Assembly: GCA_040223695.1 (NCBI GenBank)
Contig: JAVKFU010000006.1
Span: forward strand, 1-64,000
Direction: 5' to 3'
Length of the DNA stretch: 64,000 nucleotides
Source of the DNA: Deltaproteobacteria bacterium
GTDB taxonomy: Bacteria > Desulfobacterota_D > UBA1144 > Nemesobacterales > UBA2774
Below, one piece after another: positions 28,956 through 35,059 of this stretch (within the stretch, counting starts at the first letter, position 1; the number at the start of each line of letters is the position of its first letter). The translations under genes were made by a program, and so were the position numbers. The notes beneath the pieces were generated by a model, which was given only the letters and a program-made list of their open reading frames with translations, was not told the DNA's origin and searched no databases.

Positions 28956-29609
28956 TCAACCCGCGACTTTGTTAAGGAGGTTCATACCTGACAGAAGCTC
29001 GTATGTCTTCGTATCGCTCTTGATGGAAGCGAATTCCCTTAGATCATCGGGATTGTCGATATCGAGAGCTATCCTCGGATTCTCAAACGTATCGATTTTT
29101 ATATTTCTTCCGGCTGCTTCATCGAGATGCTTCCTGAAGCTGTCGTGTCCGAAGAGTGAAGGAAACGCGTCGGGCGGTTTTCTCAGTATTGCGTTTGTCC
29201 CCAAATAGTCCCGCGCCGGCACGAGAATCGCGGAAGGCGCGTCACTCTCCCTCTCCAGAATGAAATCTATGTCTTCCGTGGTAATGAGCGGAGCGTCTCC
29301 CGGAATCACCAGTACCGATTGAGCCCCCATCTCTTTACAAATCCGCGAAGCAAAATCGACCGACGCGCTCTCTCCCTTCTGCTCCGTCTCGTGAATGACC
29401 TCGATACCTAAATCCTCCGCGATTTTAATCGCGGTCGTGTCGAGAGAGACTATGAACTTCCGGTCGAGCAGCCCGGAGCCGGCAAGCGCAGTCAGCACAT
29501 CCTCAAGCATAGCATAGGCAAGCGCGGTCCTTACATCCTGGGGCAGGATTGAGGAGAGTCTTTCTTTTGCCCTGGACGGGTCTTTTACAGGTACAATTGC
29601 AAACTTCAT
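28956..29609 (-). CDS. cofC: 2-phospho-L-lactate guanylyltransferase-like (CofC/FbiD)
   Basis: A 217-residue nucleotidyltransferase of the CofC family, which activates 2-phospholactate (or phosphoenolpyruvate) with GTP for coenzyme F420 synthesis. It opens KFAIVPVKDPSRAKERLSS, contains VLVIPGDAPLIT with the metal-binding Asp, and ILVPARDYLGTNAIL. These match the family well. Further F420 genes (cofD, cofE, cofG/H) are not in the window, but the flavin oxidoreductase at 865-1866 is of an F420-using type. Confidence 0.9.
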   Translation of the reverse strand: MKFAIVPVKDPSRAKERLSSILPQDVRTALAYAMLEDVLTALAGSGLLDRKFIVSLDTTAIKIAEDLGIEVIHETEQKGESASVDFASRICKEMGAQSVLVIPGDAPLITTEDIDFILERESDAPSAILVPARDYLGTNAILRKPPDAFPSLFGHDSFRKHLDEAAGRNIKIDTFENPRIALDIDNPDDLREFASIKSDTKTYELLSGMNLLNKVAG

Positions 29610-29815: not shown

Positions 29816-32707
29816 ATGAAAAGCAACCCTCTTTACCGCGAACTCGAAGCCGAGCTCACAAAAAAAATGCGCGGAGAAGTCCGGTTCGACACCTTCACGA
29901 AAACCCTTTACAGCACCGACGCGAGCAATTACCAGATCGAGCCCGTAGGCGTGGTAATACCCCGAACCGTCGACGACGCTGAGGCTACGGTCGAGACGGC
30001 CGTTAGATACGGGGTCCCCATACTGCCCAGAGGGGGAGGAACGAGCCTTGCAGGGCAGGCAGTGGGACACGCGCTCGTAATTGATTTCTCGAAGTACCTG
30101 AGCAATATCATCGAGGTGGACAAGGAGCGTAAAACTGTCCGCACGGAACCCGGCATATATCTTGAGCAGCTCAACCGGAAGCTGAGGCCGCACGGTCTCA
30201 AGTTCGGACCCGACCCCTCAACCGCACGAATAGCCACCGCAGGAGGCGCGGTGGGCAACAACTCCACAGGGGCGCATTCGATACTCTACGGCATGGCGGG
30301 GGATAATGTGGAAGCCGCGACTATTCTTACCGCTGACAACGGTCTTCTTGAATTACACGAGCTGAGCGAAAACGGCCCGGCGGCAAAAGCGCCGGGACAG
30401 AACGGAGCGCTCCTCGACAGGCTTTACAAGCTGCGAGAAGAGAATGCCGGGATAATAAAAAGTAAATTCCCCCGCCACTGGCGGAGGGCTTCGGGATACA
30501 GCCTGAACTATCTCACTGACAATCCTTTTAATCCCGCGAAGCTCCTGGCCGGCGCGGAAGGGACGCTGGGGCTGGCTACCGAACTGACACTAAGGCTAGT
30601 CCCGATTCCCTCTTATACGGGGCTTTCGATACTTCAGTTCGGCGATGTAAGATCCGCTATGGAGGCGGTGCCCCTGATTCTGGAGCAAAACCCGTCTGCA
30701 ATCGAGCTTATTGATTCGATGCTTATCCGTCTTACAAAAGCCCACGCCGGTTACAGAAAGATGCTTTCGTTCGTGGACGGGGAGCCGGAAGCGCTGCTGG
30801 TAGTCGAGTTTTACGGGGAAACAGGATCTGAAATTAGAGGCAAGACCAGAAACCTTGCCGCACTGCTCGGAGAGAAAAAAATAGGCTGTAGCACGACCTG
30901 CGCGCTCACACATAAAGAGCAGGAAAATGTATGGGGGGTAAGGAGAGCAGGCCTCGGGCTTTTGATGAGCAAGCGGGACGAGTATAAACCCGTAACCGGC
31001 ATAGAGGACCTTTCGGTTCCGGTTAATAGACTCCCTGAATTCGTTTCGGATATCTCCGACCTCTTCGGACGCATAGGAACAAGGGCCGCTTTCTACGGGC
31101 ACGCGAGCGCGGGATGCCTCCATATAAGGCCGCTCGTGAATCTGAAGACGGAACAGGGAAAATCCGTTATGAAGGAGCTTACCGAGGAGTCTCTCAAGCT
31201 GGTACTCAAATACGGCGGTGTCCTGAGTGGTGAGCACGGGGACGGCCTTCAGAGAAGCTACCTGAACGAAAAGCTGTTCGGGCCCGAGCTATACGGAGCG
31301 ATGCGCGGGCTTAAAGCGGCCTTCGACCTTGACGGATTATTTAATCCCGGGAAGGTGGTAGACCCGCTACCCCCGGACGAAAACCTTCGCTACGGAAATG
31401 ATTCTAAATCGTACGAAGTTGATACTTACCTGGACTGGTCACCTGACGGCGGGTTCTCAGGCGCGGTCGAGATGTGTAACGGTCAGGGCGTGTGCCGTAA
31501 GCTCGGCGAGGGAACCATGTGCCCTTCCTACATGGCGACCCGCGACGAGAGGGACACGACCAGGGCGCGCGCAAACGCTTTAAGGGCCGTGCTTTCAGGG
31601 AGGCTGGAGAAAGAATCGCTTACTGGCGGGGATATGCACAGTGTATTTGACCTGTGCCTTTCATGCAAGGCCTGCAAGAGCGAGTGCCCGTCGCGTGTGG
31701 ACGTGGCCAAGATGAAGCTTGAATTCATGGCTCATTACAACGCCGAGAACGGGGTCGGGCTGAGGGACCGTATCTTAGGGAACGTACATAAAATGAGCAG
31801 GCTTGCCTCCCGCGCGCCGGGTCTGTCCAATTTTCTACTCTCCAACCCCGTTACGAGAAGGATAATGTCTGGTATCGGCATCCATCCCGCCCGGACGCTT
31901 CCGCTTTTAGCGGGGGAGAGCTTCACCGACTGGTTTTACGGAAGACAGCCGTCGGCGAGAGACAGCGGACGTAAAAAAGTCGTCTATTTTCACGATACAT
32001 GGGCCGCTTTCTACCATCCGGAAACGGGCAGGGCTGCTGTCAGGCTCCTTGAGGAAGCCGGGTTTGAAGTCGTGCTCGCCGAGAAGAGAGCGTGCTGCGG
32101 GCGTCCCATGCTGAGCAAGGGGATCATAGAGCCCGCAAGGGAGATGGCCCTCTGTAATACCGTGACCCTGGCCCCGTACGCGCGTGAGGGAATACCGGTG
32201 GTGGGAACGGAGCCGAGCTGTATCCTGACCTTCAGGGACGAATACAGGGACCTTCTACCGCACAGCGCGGACGCAAAGCTGCTCGCCGAAAACTCGTATC
32301 TTCTGGAGGAATTTTTATATGGACTCTCGGAGGCGGGAACCCTGGATATATCGTGGAAAGAAGACGTGCCTCCGGTGCTGTACCACGGGCACTGCCATCA
32401 GAGGGCGCTCTCGGACATGGAAGCGCCGTTAAAACTACTCTCACTCTCAGGCTGCGGCGTGAGAGAAACAGGGGCCGGCTGCTGCGGGATGGCCGGGAGC
32501 TTCGGATATGAGAGCGAGCACTACGAGGTCTCCCGCGCCATAGGCGAAGACCGCTTGTTCCCCGCGGTAAACGAAGCGCCGCCTGAAACGGAGATCGCCG
32601 TCTCGGGGGTATCGTGCCGACATCAGATCGAGCATTTTACGGGCAGAAAAACTAGACACATAGCTGAAATACTGGCAGAACGCGTCATCGGGAAACGTGC
32701 TCTATAA
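29816..32707 (+). CDS. FAD/Fe-S D-2-hydroxyacid dehydrogenase (GlcD-GlcF-like fusion)
   Basis: A 963-residue protein fusing a flavoprotein and an iron-sulfur protein. The N-terminal FAD domain has PRGGGTSLAGQAV near residue 63 and GEHGDG near 472. A ferredoxin-like part follows with CNGQGVC...MCPSY near 553 and CLSCKACKSECP near 610. Two CCG-type domains lie toward the C-terminus (CCGRPM near 760, CCGMAGSFG near 887). Relatives oxidise D-lactate, glycolate or D-2-hydroxyglutarate and pass electrons to the membrane or a cofactor. Its 3' end overlaps the convergent GGCT-fusion gene by 23 bases. Confidence 0.93.
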   Translation: MKSNPLYRELEAELTKKMRGEVRFDTFTKTLYSTDASNYQIEPVGVVIPRTVDDAEATVETAVRYGVPILPRGGGTSLAGQAVGHALVIDFSKYLSNIIEVDKERKTVRTEPGIYLEQLNRKLRPHGLKFGPDPSTARIATAGGAVGNNSTGAHSILYGMAGDNVEAATILTADNGLLELHELSENGPAAKAPGQNGALLDRLYKLREENAGIIKSKFPRHWRRASGYSLNYLTDNPFNPAKLLAGAEGTLGLATELTLRLVPIPSYTGLSILQFGDVRSAMEAVPLILEQNPSAIELIDSMLIRLTKAHAGYRKMLSFVDGEPEALLVVEFYGETGSEIRGKTRNLAALLGEKKIGCSTTCALTHKEQENVWGVRRAGLGLLMSKRDEYKPVTGIEDLSVPVNRLPEFVSDISDLFGRIGTRAAFYGHASAGCLHIRPLVNLKTEQGKSVMKELTEESLKLVLKYGGVLSGEHGDGLQRSYLNEKLFGPELYGAMRGLKAAFDLDGLFNPGKVVDPLPPDENLRYGNDSKSYEVDTYLDWSPDGGFSGAVEMCNGQGVCRKLGEGTMCPSYMATRDERDTTRARANALRAVLSGRLEKESLTGGDMHSVFDLCLSCKACKSECPSRVDVAKMKLEFMAHYNAENGVGLRDRILGNVHKMSRLASRAPGLSNFLLSNPVTRRIMSGIGIHPARTLPLLAGESFTDWFYGRQPSARDSGRKKVVYFHDTWAAFYHPETGRAAVRLLEEAGFEVVLAEKRACCGRPMLSKGIIEPAREMALCNTVTLAPYAREGIPVVGTEPSCILTFRDEYRDLLPHSADAKLLAENSYLLEEFLYGLSEAGTLDISWKEDVPPVLYHGHCHQRALSDMEAPLKLLSLSGCGVRETGAGCCGMAGSFGYESEHYEVSRAIGEDRLFPAVNEAPPETEIAVSGVSCRHQIEHFTGRKTRHIAEILAERVIGKRAL

Positions 32708-33734
32708 ATTCCGTAAGGAATTGAAACAGCCTCGTAAAATTCGAAGGCGTCCTCTCGGGCTGCCTCAAGTCCCGGTTAATTTCGAGCTGGATTGCCGGAA
32801 TCCCCAGCCCCGTGGCCGCGAATTTTGTTACGGTCATTTGTCTCACGGCGGGGAAGACATCCAGTCCGCCGAGGGAGATATTGTTCAAAGCCGCGGCTTC
32901 CTCAAGCTCGGACAGAAAGTGATTGTTACCCAGGAGGAACTCACCGCCCCTTCCGACTCCCGGATAGATTTCACTTTTTCTCTCACTCCCCGTTCCGTGA
33001 ATATCTATAATTAATCCTATATCGTAATTCGAGGCAATACCGGCGAGCCTTTTCTTAAAGGGGGATTCGTCGTAGTAGTTCGGGTCGACCCCGGATAGAC
33101 GGTCAGTATACAGGGCGTGACAGCCGGTCACGGAATGGAGCATTACCGAAAGCGCCCCCGTGTAGAATTCCTGCCTCTTCAATTTACCCATTCTCACATG
33201 GGCCGTCGCGTGTGGCGACGTGACGAGCACCGGGATATGACCCCTTACGTAGAGGGTTCCGTCCGACTCCGTACCGGCGGCCTGCCTGTAGGTCTTCTTA
33301 AGATGATTTTCAAAACCGAGGGCGAAATCAACCGGGTCGGTCAGTGCGAGAGACGAATGATTTCTCCAGACTCCGCGCAAAATCCTGTTTTTATCCGAAA
33401 CGCATTCTTCGAGCAACCTGCCCGGCTCATAGCTGTAGAATTCAATCCCGCCCTGATTGATTTTTACTCTTTTGAAGAGACCGTCCCCGGTGCCCTCAAC
33501 TTGGTCAAGCTCTCTCAGTTTCGTAACGGCGTTTTCCATCAAGTAAAGCTCGCCGTACACGGTTTCTTTTAACGCCGCATCGAATACGGCGGCCGGATAG
33601 CCTTGCCCTGTATCGAATATCCGGCCCGGGACCTCAAATTCCCCCGAGAGCTCGCAGTCTTGCATGAAACGGCTCCGGGGCTCGCCGCGGAGAAGGGTTC
33701 CATATACGAATATCTTTTCAAGAACGTCCGGCAT
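32685..33734 (-). CDS. Gamma-glutamylcyclotransferase-like / N-formylglutamate amidohydrolase-like fusion
   Basis: Two unrelated domains in one 349-residue chain. Residues about 6-115 are a GGCT/AIG2-like domain: FVYGTLLRGEP (9-19) and LDQVEG, where Glu80 is the expected general acid/base. Residues about 165-349 resemble N-formylglutamate amidohydrolase: VLVTSPHATAHVR (metal-binding His175), DPNYYDESPFKKRL, IIDIHGTG (His247) and QLEINRDLR. Both families act on glutamyl or glutamate-derived compounds, so a shared substrate is plausible but unproven. The reading frame is uninterrupted, with no start signal at the junction. Confidence 0.8.
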   Translation of the reverse strand: MPDVLEKIFVYGTLLRGEPRSRFMQDCELSGEFEVPGRIFDTGQGYPAAVFDAALKETVYGELYLMENAVTKLRELDQVEGTGDGLFKRVKINQGGIEFYSYEPGRLLEECVSDKNRILRGVWRNHSSLALTDPVDFALGFENHLKKTYRQAAGTESDGTLYVRGHIPVLVTSPHATAHVRMGKLKRQEFYTGALSVMLHSVTGCHALYTDRLSGVDPNYYDESPFKKRLAGIASNYDIGLIIDIHGTGSERKSEIYPGVGRGGEFLLGNNHFLSELEEAAALNNISLGGLDVFPAVRQMTVTKFAATGLGIPAIQLEINRDLRQPERTPSNFTRLFQFLTEFIEHVSR

Positions 33735-33751: not shown

Positions 33752-34987
33752 CTACATGTAGTCTGAGAATAGAATATTTCCCCGGACCATGAGAAATCTG
33801 AGATCTTGGGAAGTCGATGATATTACGGAGAGGTAAGGGTCTTTTGATTTGTTTTTCGGCTTAAGAAAAATCAGATCGGCCTCCTTACCCGCTTCGATAC
33901 TGCCTGTTTCCTCTTCCATATATAGAGCTCCCGCGCCCCCCAGGGTAGCGCAATGAACCGCCCTGCGAGCCGCCTCCTCCGTAAGAGAGCGGGACATCAG
34001 AAGATGAAGAAACCTTATCTCCTCGAAGAAATCGAGGTTATAGTTGCTGGATAGACCGTCCGTGCCGAGTCCTACCCTTTCGAGCCCGGCGTACTGTTTT
34101 AGCGGGGGCTCGCCCACCTGAAGGAGGAAGTTGCTCCTCGGGCAGAGAACTATGCCTATATCCCTGTCTCTTAATTCACCGGTCTCTTCTTCGCCGACAT
34201 GCACCATGTGCACAAGTGTTATCTTTGCGCCGGGCGCGAGACCCGATTTCTTCAGGTATGCGTAAGGGGTCTCGGCAACGGGTCTTTCGAACGGGGTTTT
34301 ATTTATGAGGGGGAAGACCTTCTTCTCTATTCCGTTCTCCTCACCCCTTACGAACCTGACCTCATCCGTGCTCTCGGCGAGATGAATACCGAGCGGAACA
34401 CCATTTCTGTCATGGGAGTCGAGAGCCTTCTTTATGAGACGGGGACCGCACGAATAAGGTGCGTGAGGAAAAAGCCTCTCCTGAAATAGTCCGCCGCTCT
34501 CAAGCGTATAGAAATCGACTTCATTTTCATTGCTGTCCATGATTTCCCTGTAGAGGACGGTCCTTAGGCCCGAATTCTTCAATATGGGCTTATCGACGCC
34601 CCCGTAGGACGATATCTCGCCGACCGTAGTGACCCCTGTTCCGATTAACGCATCGATTCCCTCCCTGACCGATTTCGTCAAGCTGTTTTCAGAGACCCCG
34701 TCCCTCTTGGTTTTCACAATCTGCTCGAGCCAGCCCGTAAACCCGTCAAAATTGCCCAGCCTCTCTTTTATCCAGCCCAGCTCCAGATGAGTGTGCGCGT
34801 TCACAAAGCCCGGGAGCAGAATCCCTTCCCCAAGGTCCAGTTCTTTCACGCTTTTATTGCGTCTCCTTATGATATCGGTTTTCCCGATTTCGCGAATCTT
34901 GCCGCCAGCTACAAGAAGGGAGACATTTTTAAGCGGCTTTGAGGAAACGGGAAGAACCGTCCGGGCCGATAAGATGAGTTTATCCAT
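33752..34987 (-). CDS. Amidohydrolase, probable aminodeoxyfutalosine deaminase
   Basis: A 411-residue member of the MtaD/SsnA/TrzN amidohydrolases that deaminate purines and related nucleosides. Metal and catalytic motifs are VNAHTHLEL (His65, His67), GIHLAES (His near 217), LVHMVHV and LGTDGLSSN. Some bacteria with MqnA use such an enzyme to deaminate aminodeoxyfutalosine, and mqnA-mqnD are 6 kb away, making that role attractive; S-adenosylhomocysteine or methylthioadenosine deaminase are alternatives. An in-frame GTG at 34996 would add three residues; no ribosome-binding site distinguishes them. Confidence 0.82.
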   Translation of the reverse strand: MDKLILSARTVLPVSSKPLKNVSLLVAGGKIREIGKTDIIRRRNKSVKELDLGEGILLPGFVNAHTHLELGWIKERLGNFDGFTGWLEQIVKTKRDGVSENSLTKSVREGIDALIGTGVTTVGEISSYGGVDKPILKNSGLRTVLYREIMDSNENEVDFYTLESGGLFQERLFPHAPYSCGPRLIKKALDSHDRNGVPLGIHLAESTDEVRFVRGEENGIEKKVFPLINKTPFERPVAETPYAYLKKSGLAPGAKITLVHMVHVGEEETGELRDRDIGIVLCPRSNFLLQVGEPPLKQYAGLERVGLGTDGLSSNYNLDFFEEIRFLHLLMSRSLTEEAARRAVHCATLGGAGALYMEEETGSIEAGKEADLIFLKPKNKSKDPYLSVISSTSQDLRFLMVRGNILFSDYM

Positions 34988-35059
34988 AACTAGCACCGCT
35001 CTTGGGACTAAGATGTAAGTTTAATAGAGGCAACGCGTTTCAGTAAAAATTTGAAATTG

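Follow-up and report, generated by a model that had tools for sequence, protein, structure and literature searches.

A single gene on the minus strand of the 64,000-nucleotide stretch analyzed here (the window; positions 1 to 64,000 of contig JAVKFU010000006.1, assembly GCA_040223695.1), which comes from a lineage of uncultured Candidatus Dadabacteria, joins a gamma-glutamyl cyclotransferase-like (GGACT/AIG2-like) domain to a domain related to the N-formylglutamate amidohydrolases (FGases). Both domains are of known kinds; for their pairing, a literature search of partial coverage retrieved no description. Our favored reading, albeit a tentative one, is that the gene encodes a bifunctional hydrolytic enzyme of the cytosol, whose single chain carries two active sites and degrades gamma-glutamyl amides or conjugates. 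If this is correct, the fixed domain pairing would offer a natural clue to what two poorly understood groups do, namely the AIG2/YtfP-like proteins, many of which have no known activity, and a clade of FGase-like proteins, as yet unannotated, in Bacillota-like genomes. An unrecognized gamma-glutamyl compound would then also be indicated for this uncultured lineage; absent a substrate, we regard the result as an annotation with good support, short of a discovery.

The fused reading frame and its N-terminal half

The fusion gene runs from an ATG at 33734 to a stop at 32685 and was divided as follows.

32685..33734, minus strand: fused open reading frame, 349 residues, ATG start, single uninterrupted frame
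33363..33713, minus strand: GGACT/AIG2-like (gamma-glutamyl cyclotransferase-like) domain, residues 8-124, from matches to Pfam PF06094, PDB entries and Foldseek
33255..33362, minus strand: linker between the halves, residues 125-160, with a helix at 134-148 in the AlphaFold secondary structure
32688..33254, minus strand: divergent FGase/poly-gamma-glutamate-hydrolase-fold domain, residues 161-349, from hhalign, AlphaFold and Foldseek

The original prediction, made from the window alone, had described one frame carrying several motifs of the two families, and all were located as described: YGTLLRGEP at residues 11-19, Glu80, SPHAT at 173-177 (95 residues after Glu80), DIHG at 244-247, and EINRD at 318-322. 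It had also raised the possibility of an assembly artefact that joined two genes. This was ruled out, because the same full-length frame, free of internal stops, is present in 38 of the 44 genomes of the order, the other 37 copies being 41-62% identical to that of the window. A search for the domain pair in other genomes, likewise proposed at the outset, thus succeeded within the order, while outside it the fusion was not seen in the ~330 other genomes sampled, which constitute a sample and not a census (the broad sample, searched with a profile of the C-terminal domain, comprised 387 genomes, ~330 of them outside the class). Among the aligned homologues, mean pairwise identity was lowest over residues 111-160, in the linker (38%), and reached 50% in the N-terminal and 55% in the C-terminal half. 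Structure prediction of the whole chain, another of the checks suggested earlier, gave a confident AlphaFold model (pLDDT 90.3, pTM 0.90) in which both halves matched the expected folds, with Foldseek connecting the N-terminal half to 1v30 and 1xhs, and the C-terminal half to 2odf, 3a9l, and 5onj.

By sequence match, the N-terminal half is a GGACT/AIG2-like domain, which bears out the corresponding part of the original prediction. Specifically, residues 8-124 matched PF06094 at 5.5e-14 and 53.2 bits, above the curated cut-off of 22.8, and covered positions 1-119 of the 120 in the profile; all 30 aligned homologues matched this family as well. Solved relatives include YtfP (1xhs, 2e-5), YkqA (2qik, 1.1e-8 by profile), and human and mouse GGACT, and the structure matches included 3jud, an E82Q mutant of the human protein. 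Tyr11, Gly12, Thr13, and Glu80, which make up the YGS/YGT loop and catalytic glutamate expected of the family, were invariant in the 30 homologues.

Homology of the C-terminal half

The C-terminal half proved far more divergent. As a single sequence it returned nothing significant in Pfam, NCBIfam, or the PDB, and sequence profiles built from it likewise found nothing significant in the PDB. Against the Pfam FGase family (PF05013) the C-terminal half of the window's protein scored 12 bits (E=0.23), below the curated cut-off of 28.9, a threshold that single fusion sequences do not reach. The motif reading on which the original prediction had based its FGase-like half is thus, by itself, weak evidence of identity; as a statement about fold and superfamily, however, that claim held.

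Several comparisons carry this conclusion. A profile of the fusion C-terminal halves alone aligned to a profile of 18 FGase sequences with P=1.2e-8 in hhalign, and with P=1.8e-11 once stand-alone homologues of the C-terminal domain were added to the query. As controls, each query profile was column-shuffled 60 times and also reversed; the shuffles scored at most 19-27 and the reversed profiles 13-16, against 59.5-77.8 for the real profiles. Furthermore, a Paenibacillus-like genome encodes a stand-alone homologue, related to the fusion profile at E=1.3e-39, that passes the Pfam FGase cut-off in its own right (33.3 bits vs 28.9), as does a second stand-alone relative at 31.5 bits. Modeled alone, the half was predicted with high confidence (pLDDT 95.1, pTM 0.92), and its top Foldseek match was 2odf; the poly-gamma-glutamate hydrolases YndL (5onj) and PghP (3a9l) were among the matches that followed. 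The TM-scores were moderate (0.55-0.65), as would be expected of a divergent superfamily member. By sequence profile, 2odf and 2q7s are themselves members of the FGase family, and the same two structures were described as the next structural neighbors of the poly-gamma-glutamate hydrolases in the study of PghL (PMC6506827). Because profile-profile alignment, cut-off-passing relatives, predicted structure, and the family membership of 2odf and 2q7s agree, homology of the C-terminal half to the FGase superfamily, and its sharing of that fold, are well supported. Purine nucleoside phosphorylases were also among the Foldseek matches and were rejected as a candidate identity; their TM-scores were lower and reflect a shared general fold, and the conserved residues are of the metallohydrolase type.

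Stand-alone copies of the C-terminal domain occur in a second phylum, which we take to be Bacillota from spore-former features at one locus (L064). Beyond the fusion carriers, the profile search of the 387-genome sample recovered a single genome, in which the domain stands alone; in the second phylum, copies were found in 16 of 398 sampled genomes, as frames of ~216-299 residues, and in 5 of 201 genomes of the Paenibacillus-like carrier's own family. No copies were found in viral contigs or in plasmids. An unverified "Bacteriophage sp." record (MT838589.1, positions 882-1484, locus L089) holds a homologue of 33% identity beside a frame for an AraC-like regulator, and this DNA may be bacterial in origin.

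Predicted active sites and function

Conserved residues of both halves map to predicted catalytic or ligand-binding positions of the respective families.

33693..33704, minus strand: YGTL loop, residues 11-14, conserved in the 30 homologues except for L14F once
33495..33497, minus strand: Glu80, predicted catalytic acid/base of the cyclotransferase domain, invariant (30/30)
33210..33212, minus strand: His175 (PH motif), predicted metal ligand 1, invariant (30/30), aligned with the invariant FGase PH
33168..33170, minus strand: Glu189, predicted metal ligand 2, Glu in 29 of 30 and Asp in one, aligned with the invariant FGase Asp33 (A4 numbering)
32997..32999, minus strand: His246 (DIHGT), predicted metal ligand 3, invariant (30/30), aligned with the FGase D-x-H
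32781..32783, minus strand: Glu318 (QLEIN), predicted general base of the metallohydrolase domain, invariant (30/30), aligned with the invariant FGase Glu212 (A4 numbering)

We take the YGTL loop to be the glutamyl-binding loop of the GGCT fold, and Glu80 presumably acts as acid/base as in other members of the GGCT/GGACT family. In the C-terminal half, profile alignment suggests a metal site in which His175, Glu189, and His246 match the predicted His, Asp/Glu, His ligand set of HutG-type enzymes. Two arginines that are invariant in the 18 aligned FGases (in S-R and D-x-N-R) are absent from this family, such that R57 and R64 of the FGases (A4 numbering) align with a variable Leu213 and with Tyr220 of the fusion. 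The C-terminal domain family has a conserved signature of its own (PHxxxHxR...K..E/D...T, DPN, DxHG, TxT, QxEI). Because both arginines are missing, a substrate other than N-formylglutamate is indicated; N-formylglutamate itself appears unlikely, and specificity for it is not supported. One stand-alone homologue (L152:7963-8646, genome G672) has PY..RY in place of PH..H and NLQG in place of DxHG, and given this loss of the predicted metal ligands it is probably a non-catalytic copy.

One conserved frame carries both folds, and both predicted catalytic residue sets are invariant in the 30 fusion sequences, save for the single Asp at Glu189; this speaks for selection at each of the two active sites. 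This bears on the alternative in which one half is non-catalytic, with a binding or regulatory role, and only the other is an enzyme. The Bacillota copy lacking its metal ligands illustrates that degenerate forms exist, and inactive partners would be in keeping with the many AIG2-like proteins noted above; faced with the invariance of both sites, however, we regard this alternative as unlikely.

From the same residues and folds we infer metal binding, two activities, their order, and a class of substrate. In the reading that we favor, the N-terminal domain, through its YGTL loop and Glu80, would convert a gamma-glutamyl amide to 5-oxoproline and a free amine. The C-terminal domain would hold one metal, most likely zinc, by His175, Glu189, and His246. 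With Glu318 acting as general base, this domain would hydrolyze an amide in an acidic, glutamate-like substrate, in the manner of the FGases and poly-gamma-glutamate hydrolases that share its fold. The metallo-domain might then trim a gamma-glutamyl conjugate or oligomer while the cyclotransferase removes the N-terminal glutamyl unit. The original prediction had instead envisaged a two-step conversion to glutamate; a bifunctional enzyme of gamma-glutamyl amides persists from it as the best reading, but a route through 5-oxoproline or formylglutamate faces objections. Opening of the 5-oxoproline ring is ATP-driven, as in the 5-oxoprolinases, and a simple metallohydrolase would therefore be a poor second step. 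Moreover, PxpA, part of the bacterial 5-oxoprolinase, was not found in the window's genome (OplAH was not searched for), and no neighboring gene points to a glutamate pathway. A parallel trimming arrangement would thus fit better than a scheme with either compound as intermediate.

Several points weigh against a bifunctional gamma-glutamyl enzyme. We know of no demonstrated activity for most AIG2-like/YtfP proteins, and an intact motif is no proof of a cyclotransferase; the C-terminal domain departs from the FGases in its two arginines; a search for an assigned function among relatives of the C-terminal domain found none; and the locus names no gamma-glutamyl substrate, while its core neighborhood, described below, survives without the fusion. 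More speculatively than the general reading, the protein could be an enzyme whose two sites are dedicated to a gamma-glutamyl metabolite not yet described, with its C-terminal domain a distinct clade of the FGase/poly-gamma-glutamate-hydrolase superfamily, stand-alone in the Bacillota-like phylum and fused in Dadabacteria.

Genomic context and comparison with known systems

The fusion gene has one near-constant neighbor.

33752..34996, minus strand: Amidohydro_1 gene (AmidoH), aminofutalosine-deaminase-like, the upstream co-oriented neighbor in a conserved context

The fusion gene lies 3′ of AmidoH after a gap of 17 bp, and dapF is also in the neighborhood. On its other side, the 3′ ends of the fusion gene and of a convergent gene for a FAD-linked oxidase (29816-32707) overlap by 23 bases (32685-32707). 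AmidoH was on the same strand as the fusion in 19 of 19 loci examined and adjacent to it in 18. Nevertheless, AmidoH and dapF are retained in two families that lack the fusion (f5 and f8), and in a further genome without it (G007) the FAD oxidase and AmidoH genes meet at a clean junction (locus L117, contig 168, 3313-3371), reflecting either loss or a gene never gained. Because AmidoH and dapF persist in such relatives, the fusion gene is accessory to its neighborhood.

This context invites two readings that tie the C-terminal domain to AmidoH. In the first, the two form a histidine-degradation pair, AmidoH being the formimidoylglutamate deiminase (HutF) and the C-terminal domain the N-formylglutamate deformylase (HutG), with the GGACT domain attached. 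HutF and HutG act in sequence, AmidoH belongs to HutF's superfamily, and the C-terminal domain has the FGase fold. Yet AmidoH scored 198 bits as an aminofutalosine deaminase and only 44.8 as HutF (TIGR02022, cut-off 413), it lies near two MqnA/D-like genes, and it is retained in relatives without the fusion; together with the missing arginines, these observations render a HutF/HutG pair highly improbable. In the second, the C-terminal domain serves the futalosine (menaquinone) pathway alongside AmidoH, for instance by removing a side product. The linkage to AmidoH would be in accord with this, as would MqnA/D-like genes convergent to the fusion locus in several families, an MqnB-like nucleosidase that was matched only below cut-off, and the purine nucleoside phosphorylases among the Foldseek matches. 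The presence of AmidoH does not track that of the fusion, however, as seen in G007, f5, and f8, the last of which also has mqn genes directly convergent to AmidoH, and the phosphorylase matches fall below those to 2odf and YndL. We consequently consider a futalosine-pathway role improbable.

Another candidate is trimming of the tail of coenzyme F420, or of folate polyglutamate, with the metallo-domain as a gamma-Glu carboxypeptidase and the cyclotransferase finishing the reaction. The window's genome encodes the F420 gamma-glutamyl ligase CofE (1.1e-71; G000:C17:123218-123880), and CofC (2-phospho-L-lactate guanylyltransferase) lies at 28956-29609 of the window, 3 kb from the fusion; judging from such genes, the lineage appears to make F420. 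Poly-gamma-glutamate hydrolases are among the nearest folds, and some stand-alone C-terminal domain genes have ligase-like neighbors. Specifically, at the Paenibacillus-like loci (L064:4270-8190 and L093-L096) a RimK-like ATP-grasp gene was present in five of five and a Mur-ligase/FolC-like gene in four of five, along with a protein of unknown function, which is a weak hint of glutamyl ligation chemistry; beside stand-alone genes in the Bacillota-like phylum, we found no recurrent partner beyond lineage-level synteny. On the other hand, CofE was present in 55 of the 59 genomes searched, including most of those without the fusion, so that its co-occurrence is unspecific, and CofC is nearby only in the window's family (f1). 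In addition, a cyclotransferase requires the alpha-amino group of the glutamyl residue to be free, which is not the case for the attached residues of an F420 tail, and a tail-trimming role is accordingly quite unlikely.

Compared with characterized systems, the C-terminal half of the fusion shares its fold with the poly-gamma-glutamate hydrolases PghP and PghL (YndL; PF05908), and its predicted His-Glu-His site, drawn from alignment only, may correspond to theirs. The zinc ligands of both enzymes are His, Glu, and His, being His41, Glu46, and His102 in PghL (PMC6506827). In the fusion the glutamate follows the first histidine by 14 residues rather than 5; a profile search returned no PF05908 match for the window protein, and the best stand-alone relative matched weakly (E=0.0045, 16.9 bits vs a cut-off of 22). 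To the FGases of PF05013 (Atu2144, 2odf; Ralstonia eutropha, 2q7s) the half is alike in fold and in the PH, D/E, DxH, and E motifs, which occur in the same order, but it lacks the invariant S-R and D-x-N-R arginines and adds the conserved residues H179, R181, K186, T192, and K227. Finally, the N-terminal half resembles the PF06094 proteins YtfP, YkqA, and human GGACT in its fold, YGTL loop, and the position of Glu80; whereas those solved relatives stand alone or, as in YkqA, form a protein of 285 residues, here the domain is fused to that of a metallohydrolase.

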